Below are positions 6,972 to 17,658 of a stretch of DNA of 64,000 nt, one piece after another (the first letter of the stretch is position 1; each line of letters opens with the position of its first letter). The notes beneath the pieces were generated by a model. That model saw only the letters and a program-made list of their open reading frames with translations, searched no databases and was not told where the DNA came from. Location: NCBI GenBank assembly GCA_010015675.1, contig ML977022.1:288767-352766 (forward strand). The letters run 5' to 3'. The position numbers were made by a program, and so were the translations under genes. Source of the stretch: Byssothecium circinans. Its lineage: Eukaryota > Ascomycota > Dothideomycetes > Pleosporales > Massarinaceae.

Positions 6972-7430
6972 ACTGAATGTAGAGAAAAGACGGTGAAGCT
7001 GGTACGTATTGAACAAACTTCAACAAAATAGTAGAAAAGTCGACAAGATATATTCGGATACTATGAGCGAATTCATCGACCTGCAGGGCCTACCCAGCAC
7101 ATCTCTGCGTCAGTATCTCAATCATTCGTTCCGATTGCTGGATTCATTCGCTCCGCCGTGATAACTGAGTGATCGACAACCGTCTTTGTGGGGCAGCCAT
7201 TCATCCAGCCATTCATCTATTATTGCTTCTCACTACTTCTCAAGCAGTTCATTTAGACGTGCGCGATGGGGTGCTTGAATTCCCCACGAAAGCTTGATGT
7301 AATGGAAGCACTTCGGATGAAAGGCCTTTCGAAGCTTAATTTTAGCGCCTTGGCGTGATGACATCTCGCGTTTCTCTGCATCATCCGTTCAATCATCGAT
7401 CAAGAGCGCGATACTACAACCTCCATCGAC
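6972..7430. other. divergent promoter region
   Basis: A 459-base spacer between the exopolygalacturonase (minus) and thioredoxin (plus) start codons, so it must contain both promoters. I see no clear TATA box or operator that I could assign to either gene. Confidence 0.5.
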
Positions 7431-8031
7431 ATGATCACTCGGCCAGTATTCCCACGCACTTTTAAATTGCAGGTACCACATGCTGCAGCTCGACGAACCC
7501 TTTTCACCGGCTCCTCTACGCGCCTAAATGAGACCCGCGTCTTCGATAATATTCGCCAGCCCAGTGATCTGCATACACTCACGCTTCTCTCTGCAACAAA
7601 CAACCGACCCTTGGTCACCTTATGGAGCACTAGTTGGTGCTCGACCTGTCAAGCGGTGAAGCCGTTAGTGAAGGGATTGATCGAGGATGAACGCGTTGGG
7701 GAGGCAGAGGGGGGGTTGGCATTCGCGGAAGTTGAACTAGACAGTACTCTCATCGGCGACCTGGGGGTGCAGTACATGGTGCGCGCTTGTTTACTCTTTC
7801 ACTTGGTTGGTAGTCAAAGAAAAGATACTAACAGGGCTTATTTAGATCACATCAATGCCAACATTGCTCGCCTTCAGCAGACAGGAAGCGCAGTTTGATA
7901 CCAAACTTGTCAAGCCTGATCTCATGAAGAATAAGGATTATCTGAGAGAGTGGCTGTTGAACGAGGCGAGAAGAGGAGGTCGAGTTGGTGGTGGCGGTGG
8001 AAGTCTTCTGGGAGGTTTGTTTGGTCGTTGA
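7431..8031 (+). CDS. thioredoxin-fold protein, likely mitochondrial
   Basis: Two exons, 7431-7778 and 7846-8031, give 177 residues. The intron opens GTGCGC and has a TACTAAC branch site and a TTTAG acceptor. The protein begins with an arginine-rich stretch without acidic residues (MITRPVFPRTFKLQVPHAAA), which resembles a mitochondrial presequence. The active site is W-C-S-T-C (Cys70 and Cys73), and the second exon supplies the cis-proline loop (ITSMP then TLLAF). It ends in a glycine-rich tail (VGGGGGSLLGGLFGR). This should be a disulfide oxidoreductase of the thioredoxin superfamily. The CSTC pair differs from the CGPC of classical thioredoxins, so the partner is unknown. It ends 109 bases from the convergent giant gene. 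Confidence 0.85.
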
Positions 8032-8140: not shown

Positions 8141-11100
8141 TTATAACAAGAAAGCCACCTTCGCACCAAGATCCGGTACATCGTTCAAAAAGTCGAGTCC
8201 TCCATCGCCGTCATCACACCAATCAACCATCTCAACATCCTCGCTCTCATAATCCCATTCATTAGCATCTTCGAATGCTCTGTGTTGCTCCTGGCTGCCA
8301 GGACCCCTGTCATCGTCTTTGAATTGCCATGGACGCTCCTTGCTAATAGTAAAATCAACATTATTCCCATGATCGTAGGGGACCTCTGTTGGTGAAAGTG
8401 ATGCCAGTCTCGCATCATCTTCCCCATGAAAGATATCGTGTACCCATTGAGCTAGAGTACTTTGTCCCTCCTGCCTTACTGTTGCTATGAATCGTCTGTC
8501 CAATGGCACGCCATCGACTTTCGTCTCGACGGTAAGCTCCCAACAGAAGAGCCAAGCTACAAGTGTCCTCCAGTCCAGAACACCACCTACTGCAAGCTGA
8601 ATTAAGCCAAGGAATTCACTGTACATCTTTTTCTTTAGAGAGTGACCTGTATCTTCTGCCAGTCTGCCGACGTTGGGTTGAGGTGTTAAGCCTAGTGCAA
8701 GGATCCAGGCATTCATGATGGTATGAAGTCCACAGGTCCAATCTCCAGCTTGCGCGAGAACCGTGACTTCACGTGGGTCTTTCGAAAATTTTACTTGTGT
8801 ATCGCCCTCGTCGTTTCTGTGCTTGGCCCAGCTCGTGTTGCGTGCGAGTTGTTGGGTTTGGTTCAATAAAGTCGTCCTATGCAGATGCCTGAGATGGTGC
8901 GGAGCACTGTCAAGGAAGTAAACACGGAACTCTGTACCTTCTTCACACTTTTCCTCTTGTAGTACCGTGAGGAAGGTGTGTATACGACCTTTGTTGTCAA
9001 AAACCCGGGGCAAAAGCCAGCATCTTCTGGGCCTCGAGGCGATGATGTCCATACCCGAATCCGAGGAATTACGGGATGCAAGTGCCATTTGGAGGGCGAT
9101 GTCCTTTGCGAGCGTAAACCCGCCCGCAAATGGTGAGTCACTTCGAGCCTTCTTGTAGGTTTCGTGCTGGAGCTGATCGATGGCCTGTACCACCGAGGCT
9201 ATGCCCTCCACCACACGGTCCTGATCCCAATGTTCTCCACTCTTTACCCATTGGTCTCCCTTACTCAACTGTAGTTGCTTTTGATTATTGAAGAGATGAT
9301 TCAACCTTTTCACCATCCCGGAGGCGAATATACACGGATGTTCGTTGCTTCTTGCGTCATTCTCCGGCCGTTCCCACTGAATGTGTTGTTGAAAGCTTCT
9401 CAATAATGCCCGCCGCGAGTCCTCTGACTGTTTTTCCATAGTCTCGTCGATCTTTGAGATGAAATCATCGTATTCGGCCTTGACAGTATTGCTACTGTCG
9501 TCGAAGTCGTGTAAAGTAGAATCAATCTGTGATTTGATTTCGCCCCTGTCAGCATTCAAGTCGAGTCTCCCCAAACTGGCGAGTAAAGGAGCATCTTTAG
9601 TCCTCGTATTGAAATCCCAGTCATCACTCGCACGCTTCTCGTTATGAAAGAAACCGCTTTCTCTGAGGGTAAGTCTGTTTTGGTCTGAGGCGAATGGCGT
9701 CAAACCAGTGGGCGGGGTGAACTGCTCCATATCCTTCAATACGGCGATTTCGTCTTCCAAGTCGACTTCATTCATGAGTCTTTGGGTGGATGTAAACCTC
9801 CTTGACATATCAACATCCTGTCCGCGTCCAACAAATCCGTAACATCGCAGGAAAGCAGTTATCATATCGAGATCCGCAGCACCGACACGAGCCAGGTGAA
9901 TGACATCCAAGGCGTCCCGGAAAAGTTGGCTTGATCGAACGGTCCAATTTTCTCGAAAGTCCATATTCGGTTCTAGGCCAAGAGCAAGAGCCCAGCCGTT
10001 GAAGATAACATGATATCCGCAAGTCCAGTTTGTACTTTGCATGGCACATGGGATCCACTTAGCAGCAGATGGTATCGGCGGGTTTGTCGAGTCAGGATTA
10101 TTCAATTTCGTGATCAATCGAATGGCTATCTGGTACAGCGTCTGACGGTGTTCTCGTGTGTAATGGTATGATCGCGAATCCACGATGGAGATGGTTGGTA
10201 CTTTTTGGTCATCATATTGGATGACTATAAGTACAGCGTGATTGAAATAAACGATTGGCACGAGAAGAGGACGGCCGTTGCCGGAGACGCCGTTAAGAAG
10301 ATGAGACGACTCGTCTGTCCAATCAGCACAAGCCTGGACTGCAGTCATCGTAACGTGACTGAAGCCCTCACGTCCATTTCCATTTTTGGTGATGGCTAGT
10401 GTTAGTGATGCAATGGCTAGCACGATTTCATCGAGTCGGAGGTACAGCGTTTGCTCCATAGAGACTTCGAGTGGTGGTGCCCTGATCGTCTTTAAGTCCT
10501 TCGCCACTTTCTGATCTTGCAATTTAGAGTCGATTGCCTGTCTGAGCTTTTGGCATGGCTCATTTCTTAAAGAGTGTGAAAGGTCAACTTTGGAGCTTTT
10601 TGCGGAGTCATTGTCGTCGCCTTTGTCGCCACTGCCTGAGGGTCCCTTGCCCTCGAACGTCCATTTCCCGTTGTTGAAATGCACATTGTTCGATCGAAAA
10701 TAGGGAAATACCTTGGTAGACACGTTTTCAAGCAGCTCCGATTCTCGTTCGCGTATTATCGTGAGTCTGTCCTCTAGCGTTGCACTGCCTGATTGCCTGA
10801 ACGTGGTTGAGAATCGTCGGTCGGCCGGCACTTCCCCCACCATCTTTTCTTGAACGAGGTCATGACAATTCAACCACGCGAACAGTGACCTCCAATCCAA
10901 CACTCCCGCGATGGCTAGTCTGAGAACTTCTGCCAATTCTAGGTAGGCCTGAGCACTCATCGGGGTTTTTGAAGGTGTGAGACCTAACGCGAGGATCCAA
11001 GCGTTCATAAGAGCATTCCAACCGGACTGCCAAACTCCTTTTGCTTCCTTCGGCACTTGTACTATGTACGGTTCCATACAGTAGTCGGGAGCTGTGTTGC

Positions 11101-14100
11101 TCGAACCTCGGAGGCGATGCTGGGACCATCCCAATGACGAAACAATCTTCTTGGTCTGTTCAAAGAGAACATTGCGGTGTTTCTTGAGATGCTTTGGCCT
11201 GCTATCGAGGAAATAGACAGAAAATTCTGCCTTACCATCTTTCAACTCCTCTTGCACAACTACGAGAAAGATATGTGGGTGTTCATTGCCACCGAAGGCT
11301 CTAGGCATGAGCCAGCACCTCCCAGGTCTCGAGGAAATACCGCGTGTCTCCACTTTACCATTTTCAACAGCGCGAGCTGTTGCAAGCGTAAAGCCTCGAG
11401 CAAAAAGACGGTCTGGGTCTCCGTTATCAGCTACTTGGAGCTGATCAATGGCCTCGAGAACTGATGCAACGCCAGCCATCAACCTTTCCATAGACAAGTC
11501 AGTGCCCGCATGAACTTTTACGTAAGGCTCGACATGTTTTTGCATCAGGAGGGCTTTGTACTTTTCGTAGGAGCGGTTCCAGAAATTGCAGGAGGATTGG
11601 TTGATTTCATTCTCGAGCCGCTTGTCCTGAGATTTGTCATGCAATTGCATATAACCTTGATACTTTTGTATCATCGCTTCCGGGTCGCTCTCCCAGGATT
11701 CCCCGATTGTCGCCAAAAATCCCTTATAGAATTTGTGGGCTCCAGTCTCATCAGGGATGTTACATTTTCTTATGCTGGTAACAAAGCGTGTGTTGCCGAA
11801 ATTGACGTTGTTGGTGTGATCATACGGTCGTTCAGATCTGGGTAATGTACCCAGAGGGATCTCAAACTGATCGTAAATGTTCTCCAACCTAGTCGCCATT
11901 GCAATATCCCCAGCGTCCTGAGACCCTTTTTGTCTTAGTGACGATTCGAACCGGCGATTTTCTGGCACATTATCCATAGTTCTTTCTGCAGTGACCTGAT
12001 TGCAGAAGAACCATGCGACCAGGGTCTTCCAGTCCAAGGCACCAGCTATTGCTAGCTGCAAGATGGACATGAACGAGCCAAAGCGGCTAGATAAATCGAA
12101 GTTTCGGTTAGGAGTCAAGCCCATTGCAAGGATCCAGGCGTTCAAGATGGTATGGTAGCCGCACCTCCATCCATTGTCTTGTTGCGCCACACTTACTATA
12201 CGTAGATCTTCGGTGAAAGTTACATCTCCATCAATACCTCCGTTACGATGGGTTGACCATCCAAGATCGGCAGCTGCCTTTCGTATTCGCTGGAAAAGAG
12301 CGGACGGGACGTCTTGTAAATAAGTCTCCAAGCTATCGAGGATAGAGGCGGTAAACACTGTTTGTTCGTCCTCGGTAACCTCTTCCTGTACCACTGCTAG
12401 GAAGATGTGGGTTCTTCCGTCACCTTTGGTTTTCTGCCCAGCAATATCATCCTCCGTCTCGTCCCCTCCTCGCAGTCCTCGCAACACACCTCGCCCGACC
12501 GTTATAGGCATAAGCCAGCATCGCCGTGGTCTTGATACAACCGCGTTTTCTGGAAGTGACGTACTCCTGCTTATACCCATCGCAATGTTATAAGATGATG
12601 CGAGTGCAAAACCACCGGCGAAAACTTCCGAATCCAGGTGGGAATTCGCTTGATGTGTGTCAATTGCTTCAATGACTGATGCTATTCCAAGTGTTACATT
12701 CCAATCATCAACGTATTCCTCTTCTGGTGGAAATTGGAAAGGTGGAGAAAATGTTGTCTTCTTCGCTAAATCGTCGTAAACCTTCATCCTTTGTGCCAAG
12801 AAGTCACAAGGCCTGTTGTCAATGTACATCTGGTCAGACTCTTTCTTCGCAGCGTCTTTTACACCTAGAACTTCATGAACGCCCTTTGTCACCTCTAGTA
12901 AGTCAGGATTTATAGGATTGCCATTGGCCCCTTCATTGCCTTCCACCTCGTCGAGAGGTTGATCCCGAGCTTTCCATGCGGCTTCAATTTCCTCTACAGT
13001 GGAATCTGGATCGAGTCGTCCTAAGCGAGCAAGCTCTAAAGCCTGATCTTTGACGGCTTGCTCTTCCCAATCATCACTTTTGAACGCGGAATTGTGTCGC
13101 TGGCCTTGACCCTCGAATCGAATTCTCGTAGCTTCCAAATCGATGGTGGTCTGTGGGTTTTGGCGCCAAAATTCGTTCTCGTCGCTGAAGCTTCTCTGGA
13201 GTACGTGCCCTCGGTCTCTGTCTGTGGAAAACTTCTGAGTTTTGTCGAGCTTTCTCTTGGGGTCTGCGGGTGATAGAACAAAGCGGTAACACTCGAGGAA
13301 TTTGGCGAGAAATTTGCTGTTCGCTTCACCTTGTTGAGTGATGTATATTGCTTGTACGAGGTCCTGGAAGAATTGACCTTCTAAATCCCAGCTTTGGAAA
13401 AACTTAGTGTTGACTGTGAGACCAAATGCTTTTGCCCAGGCATTCATTATGACATGGTATCCGCTTGTCCAACCCTCGCTTTGTATCGCACATGGATACC
13501 ACGTAGCGTAAGGCGGTACCGCATCGTCTGTTGAGGAGGAATGTACGTGTTGCCACCACTTAGCCTTCTTATATAGACTGACTGCTGCTTGGTAGACTTT
13601 TTGACGCTCTGCTGGAGTCTGGCTGTACGGCCTTGAGTCCATGACGGAGATTGTCGGATCGTTGCTCTCGTTGTACTGGATTACAATGAGCACCATATGA
13701 TTCTTGCTATCATTCTTGATCTCGTACGGTACAATCAAAGGCCTTCCGGGGCGGAGAACAGACGCAAATGTCTCCCTTTTTGCTATCCAGCGTCTGAAGG
13801 CTTCCGGTAGGAGCACACCATATCCTCTGGGTTTCTCCTCATTTTCAGAGATAGACAGAGTCACCGTTGTAATGATCCTCAAGAGATCCGCTGCTGGCAG
13901 GCCTGAACCGTGCTTGGCTTTTTGGTTGATTTGTGCTCGTTGGTCCTCCGTCTGGTTTTTCCTAAACTTCCTTATGCGATCGTGAACGTATTTGCAGGCC
14001 TCTTTTCGCAGTTCTTCTGCCTTTACCGCTCCCATTTTTGCCTCTCTCTCTTTGGCCTCTCTTGCTTTTCTGGGCTTTTCCTCTTCAGTCGTTGCCTTAG

Positions 14101-17100
14101 CTCTTTCATTCATGAGCACAGCGAGTTCGTCAACATGCAGCTTCGAGATACGAGTTCCCGTCCCCGCATAATGCTGTACCAATCTGGGTAGTGACTCTGA
14201 GTCAATCTGTTCGTCAGACCAAGTGTCGGTTGGAAAAAGCGTTCTGTGCTTCATGCCTCCCTCAACAGGAATTGACCGAATGATTTCGTTTGTCCGTGGG
14301 GTATTATTCCCAGGCAACCGGGCAAGTTTCTCGATATCTCTGTCCAGCTGACTCTCACTTAAGACCAAGTCAAAGCGATTACCACGCCGGACTTGGATCT
14401 CATCGCTTATAAATGCTTGACTATCATCGGGGTTACGATTGTCAACAAACCCCATGCAGGCTAGAAAAGACCATATTAATCTCCAGTCAGCATAGCCCTT
14501 ACTGACTGCGCGAATTACTTTCCGGCATGACCTGAAGGTCTTGTGTTTTGACTTGAAGAAAGGATTGACTGGTAGCCCTAGTGCAATCGCCCATGCAGTC
14601 ATAATAGTGTAGTATCCTGTCTGCCATGGCATTGCGGCTTCCACTTTTGTGATCCAATTTGCTTGCAGGTCGGGTTTGAAATTGCCATCTAAGTAATCAA
14701 GTTGGCCCTTATTGCACAGCATGCCCTTTACATCGTTGTATACTTCGCAGCGTAGTTTGGGTCTCGAGAGCCAGGGCGCTGAATCAAAGACAGCTATTGA
14801 AACACGGCTGGTGTCTGGTGACTGAACGACGACAAGAAAACTGTGGCCATTAACCGTATAAGGCAGCAGCATTGGTTGAGCACCAAACAATGCAACATCT
14901 CTCTTGCTGGCGGCCAGAGATTTTAGGGTGTCGAATGTCATAACTCCGAAGCATTCTTGCGGTTCTTGTTTGTGGTCGACAGCTTGGATGACGGCGGCGA
15001 CGCTCCTGAAAATGGTTTTCTCATCGAGTTCCTGACTTGCAGATGTGTCTTTCCCCATTAGCTTTTTCATTTTTGGTTGTTCAAGCGTGTCTCGGAGGTA
15101 GGCGCAGGCCGGGTTGATAACCTGAGATTTCGTCTTTTGACTCCCATCTTCATTTTCCGAGTCACTAGTATCCGAGACTCGTATCACGGATGAACTATCC
15201 GACTCTTCCCCACTCGGCTCTCCTTCGTTCGACCATCTATCATTTTCTCGCCTCAGCTCTCCAGTAAACAGTACCATTGTCCCGTTATCAAGCTTCTCCG
15301 GCGCTAAGGCATTGCCCCTTCTCCCCTTCCAAGCCTGCATTAATATGTTTTCTCTTTCTTCAAACTTTCTCGCTTCCGCAGCGGTAGCTTGGAACCTTCT
15401 GTCATCTTCAGGTACATCCACGCCGATCGCCACGATGTTCCAGCACTTCAAGAAAGCGAATATCAGTTTCCAGTCTAAAGCGAGGTTGATGGCGAAGAGA
15501 TTGGCGATTACATCAAATTGTTCCCTAAAATACTCCTCATTCTCGGTGGCCAACTTGAACCCAGGGTTCAGCGCTAGACCCAATGCCAATGCCCAAGCGG
15601 AAAGAACCATAAGCCGGAAGCTAATCTCGATATCGTCGTGGCGAGGCACTCCGGCGACCCAGAGGGAGTGGTCCCCGTCCGGGAATTTTCCGAAATCTGC
15701 ATCGATCTTGTTTAGCCAGTCGTGAGCTTCCACGAAGTTCTTTGCTTTCTTGCGCACCGAGCGTCGTTGTCTTTTCTTGGAGTCGGCTGTGGGGTGTATG
15801 ATGTGCAGGCTAATCTCCCTTTTCTTTGATAGCTGTATGATGGCAAGGTGTGTGTCCTCAGCAGGGAGCAAAACTGGACGGCCGGGTAGGAACAATCTAT
15901 CACCCAATGGCGTAGCAAAGCCAGCCATGTTGGGGTTATTTTCTTTGTTCAGATTGTGATTGTTGATAGCTCTTGGGACGAGTTGGACGAGGAATGTTAT
16001 AAAGCCTGAAGCTTGGATGCGGTCCTCATAAGCTTCCTTATTTGACATGACTATTGGCCTGAGCTTTGCAAGACGTAGGCGCAAGTATCTAGAAAATATA
16101 TCAGCAAAAGAAATCGTAGAAGTTGATAGTGTCAAAACTTACAGGCAAAAGTCGGAAGTCTTTTCCAATACAGTAGTACGGTCAATAAACCCGTCACCCT
16201 GTGCCAGCTGTTCTAACTGTTGCCGTGCTGCTTCCTGCTTCTCTTTCTTCTTCTTATCTGCTTCAGCTTTCGCCCTCACAGCCTCCTCTTTCTTCTCCTT
16301 CTTCTGATTAGCTGCCTGTATCTCCTTCTTTCTTGCTTCATCTACCGTATTCTTCTCAGCCGCCTCTTCTGCTTTCTTCCTCCTCTCTCTCTCTTCTTTT
16401 GCAAGTTTCTGATCAATCTTTTCTTTTTGGCCTGCTTCATACTCTGTAAGTCTCTTATCAATGGCCTCTTTCCTCCCCACTTCATACTCCTTTATCCTTG
16501 TTTGAGCGTCTCTTTCAAATTTCTTTTGCAACTGTCCCCTAATTTCTGCCTCAGACTTTCCTGCAAAGACTTTCTTCACGGTCTCTGGGTCGAAGGCTTC
16601 AATTGGCTGCTGCTGCTCAGTACCAACGGGTCCCCTATCCGTCGACCATATAGTTGAAATGTTTTCCGTGTTCTGAGAATTATGCCGTGCTTTTCTCTCA
16701 ACATCGTCAAGAACAAAGGTGCGCTCGTCCAAGCTCCTTGTGAGCTCAGTAGTGCCACCTTGCCAAAAGAAAATAGGCTGTGAGAGGAGCTCGATCGTGG
16801 CGAAGGAGGGCAAGGGGCCGATGAACAGCTCGTCCGTATCACCAACATTGCGGAACGTAGAGGCGTTGACAGTGACAGATGTATGAACTGGAACGACGAC
16901 GAAATAGCGTAAGCCTGCGTCGTCGGCTCCTTGGATAGGACGAAGGTCTATACTGGCAGCTTCAGATTCTTCATTGGATTTGCCACGATTCCGCGCGTTG
17001 GTGCTAAATCGCAACTGTTAGCTTTGGCGACTTGCCTTGATCTACCAGAGTGACTAAATACTTACACTTTAAACGTATGATTGCCCATCACGGAGAAAGG

Positions 17101-17658
17101 GCGAGGGACACCATTAGATGCCACGACAGCACACTCCACTTCAGCCACTCCCTCCACGAACTCATCCCCATCTTGCGCAAATGCTCTTACAAAATGATGA
17201 TACGCAAAGTCCCCCAAGTCTCTGTTTGACTCTCTCTCAATGCGTCCAAATAATTCTCGAAAAGCATCTGAGGCGCCGATGCTATCTAAATCATTGGAAG
17301 GCTTTGGATTCTTTCGCGTTACTCGCGCACCCGTATTGAGTACTTTAGGCCGCCCAGGTGGAACCACTGGCGACCGAATAATTGCTGTTTCGAGGGATGC
17401 AGTCTGCAAATTGTGAAGCTCTCCCCATGGACGGTTAAAGAGGGCTTGAGTGAAGCTATCGACTGTGGAGGGTACTCCAGCACTGCCACGAGAGGGTTGG
17501 GCGGGAAAGACCCATTGGATATCCAGTCTATCTTCAACTGGGATTCCGCCGTCACTTGGGGATTCGGAAACTGTGCTTTTTGTCTTTGGCTTCTTCGGGT
17601 CCTTGCCTCCTCCTTGTTTCGTCGCTTTGCGTTTGGTTCCAGCCTTCTTTGGCGGCAT
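8141..17658 (-). CDS. giant protein with seven Ulp1-like peptidase modules
   Basis: Three exons (17658-17066, 17003-16143, 16088-8141) splice in frame to about 3133 residues; both introns (62 and 54 bases) have GTAAGT donors. Residues 1-30 are lysine-rich and NLS-like (MPPKKAGTKRKATKQ), about 40-330 form an unrecognised domain, and 349-466 are a highly charged coiled coil. The rest is seven modules with the His-Asp-Gln-Cys order of C48/Ulp1-type clan CE peptidases, which cleave SUMO or related conjugates. Catalytic positions: module 1 His565 only; module 2 His900, Asp920, Thr975 for Cys; module 3 His1282, Asp1302, Gln1354, Ser1360 for Cys; module 4 His1712, Asp1736, Gln1788, Cys1794; module 5 His2090, Asp2113, Ser2173 for Cys; module 6 His2435, Asp2455, Gln2502, Cys2508; module 7 His2855, Asp2878, Gln2931, Cys2937. 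The C-terminus is acidic. Clan assignment is from motifs; substrate is unknown. Confidence 0.85.
8471..16033 (-). repeat. seven-copy peptidase-module array (coding)
   Basis: Approximate module spans, N- to C-terminal: 1 at 15371-16033, 2 at 14381-15022, 3 at 13211-13888, 4 at 11936-12718, 5 at 10796-11494, 6 at 9776-10444, 7 at 8471-9232. Each has a leading helix (like GIASVIEAID), a His-containing strand (HIFLAVVQ, HMVLIVIQ), an Asp strand ending DS, the Cys helix (WTCGYHVIFNGW or variants), then a trailing helix with an AFLxC-like core and usually a V-x-x-x-RRF box. Modules 3 and 6 resemble each other (type A), and 4, 5 and 7 resemble each other (type B, with a shared RPRRCWLMP-like box). 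Boundaries were set by eye. Confidence 0.8.

Follow-up and report, generated by a model that had tools for sequence, protein, structure and literature searches.

The fungus Byssothecium circinans, placed in the Massarinaceae (Pleosporales) by taxonomy look-up, carries a gene for a predicted protein in which seven Ulp1-like clan CE peptidase modules follow one another in a single chain, some with a complete catalytic tetrad and others having lost catalytic residues. The gene, its modules and their tetrads, the predicted fold of modules M2, M6 and M7, the family of related arrays and the loss of catalytic residues by position were obtained by computation. The reading that we favour, while giving it somewhat less than an even chance, is that of an expanded member of a tandem clan CE family acting as a nuclear protease of ubiquitin-like conjugates, in which the dead modules would hold and the live ones would cut.

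Gene model and genomic context

The gene lies in the window, the whole 64,000-nucleotide stretch of DNA analysed; the genome examined comprises 48.4 Mb in 109 contigs. In agreement with the first-pass annotation, which had described one spliced gene at 8141..17658 with two introns and about 3133 residues, the model is identical, letter for letter, to the public predicted protein CC80DRAFT_554006 (P0001), labelled a hypothetical protein and, in one source, “Ubiquitin-like protease f...” (Table 1). All seven modules lie within the open frame of exon 3, so that no splice is required to join them. At the intron 2 junction, Cys484 is joined to Tyr486-Leu487, which by eye is like the Cys-x-Tyr/Phe helix start preceding other modules. 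A fusion of several genes by annotation, or an assembly error, is very improbable: although the public entry is likewise a prediction, one stop-free 8-kb frame contains all modules, the same order of module types (D1–D4) is found in 17 homologs, and the modules, just 18–43% identical to one another, are not an assembly repeat.

A further copy of the gene on contig C70 was considered as a true duplicate and rejected. C70 opens with 3000 bases that are identical to C46:246383-249382 (3000/3000), and the offset between the contigs is equal at three compared stretches, including the gene and an adjoining 4-kb piece. Given this common offset and a C70 start inside C46, the copy is best read as an end overlap of the contigs. 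The end of C46 (from 246383) equals the start of C70 at every place compared, so that genes in this unmerged overlap seem to be present twice.

A thioredoxin-like gene adjoins the array gene on the plus strand (window 7362-7898). In the Alternaria rosae model P0012, the array protein ends in a fused homolog of it (49% over 117 aa), which points to a neighbourhood that is probably of long standing and in which orientation has changed. Passages of PMC3212892 describe Crypton elements with C48 peptidases, and a transposon origin was considered for the array gene; no mobile element stood out among the ORFs flanking it.

Table 1. Features of the array gene and its product (positions in the window)
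Feature	Position	Strand	Description
Whole gene	8141..17658	-	ATG 17658, stop 8141; 3 exons; 3133 aa; identical to P0001
Exon 1	17066..17658	-
Intron 1	17004..17065	-	62 nt; GTAAGT...CTAAC...TAG
Exon 2	16143..17003	-
Intron 2	16089..16142	-	54 nt; GTAAGT...TAG
Exon 3	8141..16088	-	8-kb uninterrupted frame holding all seven modules
Basic NLS-like N-terminus	17569..17658	-	residues 1-30; by eye
Conserved beta-rich N-terminal domain	16760..17130	-	residues ~177-279; intron 1 inside
Lys/Glu-rich long helices	16199..16552	-	residues ~349-466; coiled-coil-like by composition and predicted model
M1	15365..16087	-	D1-type, pseudo, tetrad DHRS; profile match residues 538-721
SIM-like VIRV	15176..15187	-	residues 786-789, M1-M2 linker; between Ser/Asp/Glu stretches
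M2	14408..15109	-	D2-type, pseudo, HDAT, Thr975 replaces Cys; SENP-like fold (predicted model)
M3	13235..13999	-	D3-type, HDQS, Ser1360 replaces Cys
M4	11939..12811	-	D4-type, intact HDQC, Cys1794
M5	10799..11566	-	D4-type, HDES, Ser2173 replaces Cys
M6	9782..10558	-	D3-type, intact HDQC, Cys2508; Ulp1/SENP-like fold (predicted model)
M7	8477..9295	-	D4-type, intact HDQC: His2855, Asp2878, Gln2931, Cys2937; clan CE fold (predicted model)

N-terminal region and linker

The NLS-like N-terminus and coiled coil described earlier were both seen again, as a basic start (by eye) and Lys/Glu-rich helices. A basic MPPKRK-like start is present in 13 of 14 aligned rows (the protein and 13 homologs), the exception being P0009, and residues 345-480 consist of Lys, Glu, Arg and Asp to 51%. 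The core of the N-terminal beta domain (VTVNG-TY-N ... IGPL ... IELLSQPIFF) is common to the aligned homologs, with about half of the domain missing in P0007 and P0010. The domain had no Pfam match, and a PDB sequence search gave an E of 1.6 at best, which is not significant.

In the M1–M2 linker, VIRV is flanked by Ser/Asp/Glu stretches and resembles a SUMO-interacting motif of the phospho-SIM kind. A rule for such motifs, set after this one had been seen, matches 1.85% of 2000 block shuffles; applied to 37 proteins it gave one further match, in P0030 (581 aa), and found none in the other full-length homologs.

Seven modules and three complete tetrads

A profile made from 98 modules of other proteins, this protein being left out, recovers the seven tandem modules of the earlier description, M1 to M7 scoring 102, 179, 196, 219, 189, 228 and 217 bits, with M1 the lowest, against a best domain score of –0.5 bits in 200 block-shuffled copies of the protein. 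The expectation that each module would be recognized as C48 held in part: the custom profile finds all seven, and the whole of exon 3 passes Pfam C48 (PF02902) with 34.6 bits (cut-off 20.7), but when the modules were scanned singly one of seven was listed (13.4 bits) and none exceeded the cut-off. Among 13 modules of types D3 and D4 scanned, three list C48 at E ≤1 (best 5.6e-6). A profile of these 13 modules matched PDB 6dg4 at E 2.6e-6, all four tetrad residues (His, Asp, Gln, Cys) being aligned, and the chains following it had E values of 0.51 and 1.6. Matches to RdRP_4, MOSC, ceramidase and thymidylate synthase fell under the cut-off and were read as chance.

Assignment of the catalytic residues by alignment column shows a complete His-Asp-Gln-Cys tetrad in M4, M6 and M7. 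The first-pass annotation had this order in each module; the aligned tetrads bear it out for these three of the seven and contradict it for M1, M2, M3 and M5, M1 having none of the four catalytic residues.

In SUMO and NEDD8 proteases, the Trp after the catalytic His is part of the Gly-Gly tunnel. Trp directly follows this His in 0 of 48 intact modules and in 1 of 76 His-bearing ones (the second module of P0003, which is not intact), while HW occurs at the catalytic His of Ulp1-like, SENP8-like and Ulp2/SENP7-like sequences of the same genome, and of 6dg4. Judged from sequence, the missing Trp speaks against these modules being SUMO or NEDD8 proteases of the canonical kind. By eye, several D3 modules have a WL-x-D stretch similar to the one that opens the Ulp1 domain (WLND in L001); M6 has Tyr there. 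Since the genome has Ulp1-like, SENP7/Ulp2-like and SENP8-like sequences of its own, the array protein is an extra protein.

Predicted folds

AlphaFold models of M2, M6 and M7 find their structural matches among clan CE proteases, Ulp1/SENP included, and display the papain-like clan CE fold that the first reading had led us to look for; the M2 model keeps a SENP-like fold despite the loss of Cys and Gln. Sequence and predicted fold together put the modules with Ulp1/SENP and clan CE.

The fold searches bear on an alternative that we consider unlikely, in which the intact modules would be clan CE enzymes working on other peptides or in YopJ-type acyl transfer rather than modifier proteases. The uniform lack of Trp after His would fit such enzymes, as would the bacterial and viral clan CE proteins that make up the rows aligned on M7, although each chain is shown solely at its best-aligning place, so that these rows give no ranking of SENPs for M7; folds of YopJ type do occur, further down in the lists. 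Against this alternative, SUMO proteases come top by Z for M6 and M2 (with many rows tied), XopD and Ulp1 are at the top in Foldseek for M6-M7 (just three rows having E ≤0.001, all XopD), and the profile match is to a SUMO protease, 6dg4. The fold ranking and this match weakly suggest SUMO as the favoured modifier.

A family of arrays with loss by position

Protein searches returned 20 (query included), 9 and 8 proteins, the second and third scoring the 8000 candidates that shared most words. Modules were counted in 29 of the 37 proteins (P0001-P0029); the eight short relatives from the third search (294-581 aa, one named Bimuria) stand outside the count and the tree. Four modules, D1–D4 in order, are present in 17 homologs (P0004-P0020). 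The other arrays have seven (Byssothecium), five (Polyplosphaeria) or three modules (Massarina, Lophiotrema); seven short proteins have two, several of them beginning inside a module, and P0027 has five module pieces, some of them fragments. The named members belong to genera that we take to be of the Pleosporales, a placement looked up for Byssothecium and Polyplosphaeria. Within the patterns used, 53 viral and 17 prokaryotic stretches were found, and none was confirmed as a relative.

A maximum-likelihood tree of 95 modules of at least 150 aa, out of 105 found, groups M1 with D1 (95/97), M2 with D2 (98/91), M3 and M6 with D3 (100/93), and M4, M5 and M7 with D4 (100/100), giving a Byssothecium order of D1-D2-D3-D4-D4-D3-D4. 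Support is weak for some inner branches, and those leading to M1, M2 and M3 are long. An origin of the extra copies within the lineage is not rejected by AU tests (p 0.105 for M4/M5/M7, p 0.287 for M3/M6). From the tree and these tests, the D1–D4 array seems to be the ancestral state among the proteins sampled, with D3 and D4 types multiplied in Byssothecium. Such an origin, together with the long branch of M3 and the loss of Cys in two of the three extra modules, would also suit drifting duplicates, M3–M5 being relics in an array whose four-module ancestor works. We regard this as improbable, given a frame open over 8 kb, an intact M4, and M4, M5 and M7 that retain 36–43% mutual identity.

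A degenerate D4-type module stands ahead of D3 in Polyplosphaeria and Lophiotrema (third module of P0003, first of P0021) and is read as a separate array change.

The 17 four-module homologs include several close relatives and are not independent; among them, Cys is kept in 0/17 D1, 2/17 D2, 16/17 D3 and 16/17 D4 modules, and the full HDQC tetrad in 0, 2, 13 and 14, with the His-Asp part missing from one D3 row and one D4 row. On these residues, D1 and, in most proteins, D2 are classed as pseudoproteases, and the catalytic residues are retained in D3 and D4. The loss of Cys by position and the clustering by position in the tree indicate that the division into pseudo and active modules is old. 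Ala or Ser replaces Cys in D2 with His, Asp and Gln kept in eight proteins, several closely related (HDQA 6/17, HDQS 2/17). In P0009 and P0010, from Ascochyta, D2 is HDQC, unlike in the other 15 four-module proteins, and this is either an older state retained or a Cys regained.

Identities of D1/D2/D3/D4 in seven species pairs were 84/72/86/84, 62/45/63/68, 69/67/56/65, 52/39/34/45, 46/31/45/42, 50/29/45/48 and, for P0009-P0010, 65/75/85/82%. D1 is about as conserved as D3 and D4 in six of the seven pairs, which argues against its simple decay; in P0009-P0010 it falls well below D3 (65 vs. 85%). D2 is the least conserved module in four pairs.

Proposed function

According to passages of PMC5774762 and PMC3216068, yeast Ulp1 C580S stays bound to SUMO conjugates with a Kd of ~12.8 nM. 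The C580S-like Ser of M3 and M5, with the Ala or Ser of D2 in 8/17 homologs, led to our hold-and-cut proposal. The protein would be located in the nucleus, where its inactive modules may bind but not cleave ubiquitin-like modifiers (SUMO being the likeliest), and would thereby hold poly-modified proteins or chains; the intact M4, M6 and M7 would cleave the conjugates so held, and the extra D3/D4 copies of Byssothecium would raise valency. We infer the nuclear site, modifier binding, cleavage and valency as the point of the array. The original suggestion of a multivalent processor or binder is supported in part, as regards the modules and their clan CE placement, and is narrowed by only M4, M6 and M7 being intact.

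The hold-and-cut proposal competes with an active protease in which D1, D2 and the Ser modules would be spacers, allosteric partners or non-modifier docking sites, and only D3/D4-type modules would act on ubiquitin-like substrates. We judge this rather unlikely. D1, and sometimes D2, lacks Cys and in addition His or Gln, which may have cost these modules the modifier groove, and the fold retained in the M2 model would suit structural pseudo-modules; the trap-like pattern, by contrast, is frequent in D2 (the HDQA and HDQS cases above) and present in M3.

Taken further, hold-and-cut would make the array a natural trap-and-cut machine, with SUMO-type protease readers built in by Ser, Ala or Thr for Cys beside active copies, using valency to read poly-modified proteins or chains, and evolving by the addition of reader or cutter modules; this extension is possible but doubtful. 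Fixed dead modules beside live ones make a pseudoprotease role in ubiquitin-like signalling testable module by module, array lengths of 3, 4, 5 and 7 form a natural series for valency tests, and the dead modules could provide naturally occurring trap reagents for SUMO or other modifiers.

Comparison with known systems

To our knowledge, known Ulp1-type proteases act with one catalytic domain. Ulp1/SENP enzymes (MEROPS C48, PF02902) have one module, compared with seven in the array protein and usually four in its relatives; the array family differs further in its inactive modules at fixed positions, its extra N-terminal domain, and intact modules that, unlike Ulp1/SENP, are without Trp after His. 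The nearest solved structure, 6dg4, is the Ulp1-like SUMO protease of Chaetomium thermophilum. SseL, ChlaDUB, RickCE, OtDUB and ASFV pS273R are single-domain chains in the rows shown, and had no sequence match in the PDB profile search.

The protein is already public under a domain-level name; searches of open-licence papers brought up no account of a tandem multi-Ulp1 protein. In the relevant passages, “tandem Ulp1” in PMC10779208 denotes neighbouring paralog genes, PMC8146201 covers Ulp1 genes, and PMC11412873 has a 20-member “Ubiquitin-like protease family profile” orthogroup; either of these last two sets could include members of the array family.

P0004-P0020 share the family, the D1–D4 order and, in those aligned, the N-terminal domain, with four modules vs. 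the seven of Byssothecium. UTAG, an engineered SUMO trap based on Ulp1 C580S in passages of PMC5774762 and PMC3216068, is like M3 and M5 in carrying Ser for the catalytic Cys; UTAG is an engineered single domain, whereas M3 and M5 are natural, fused to intact modules and only putative traps. The parts are known and the arrangement is new: a conserved tandem C48-like array with dead and live positions.
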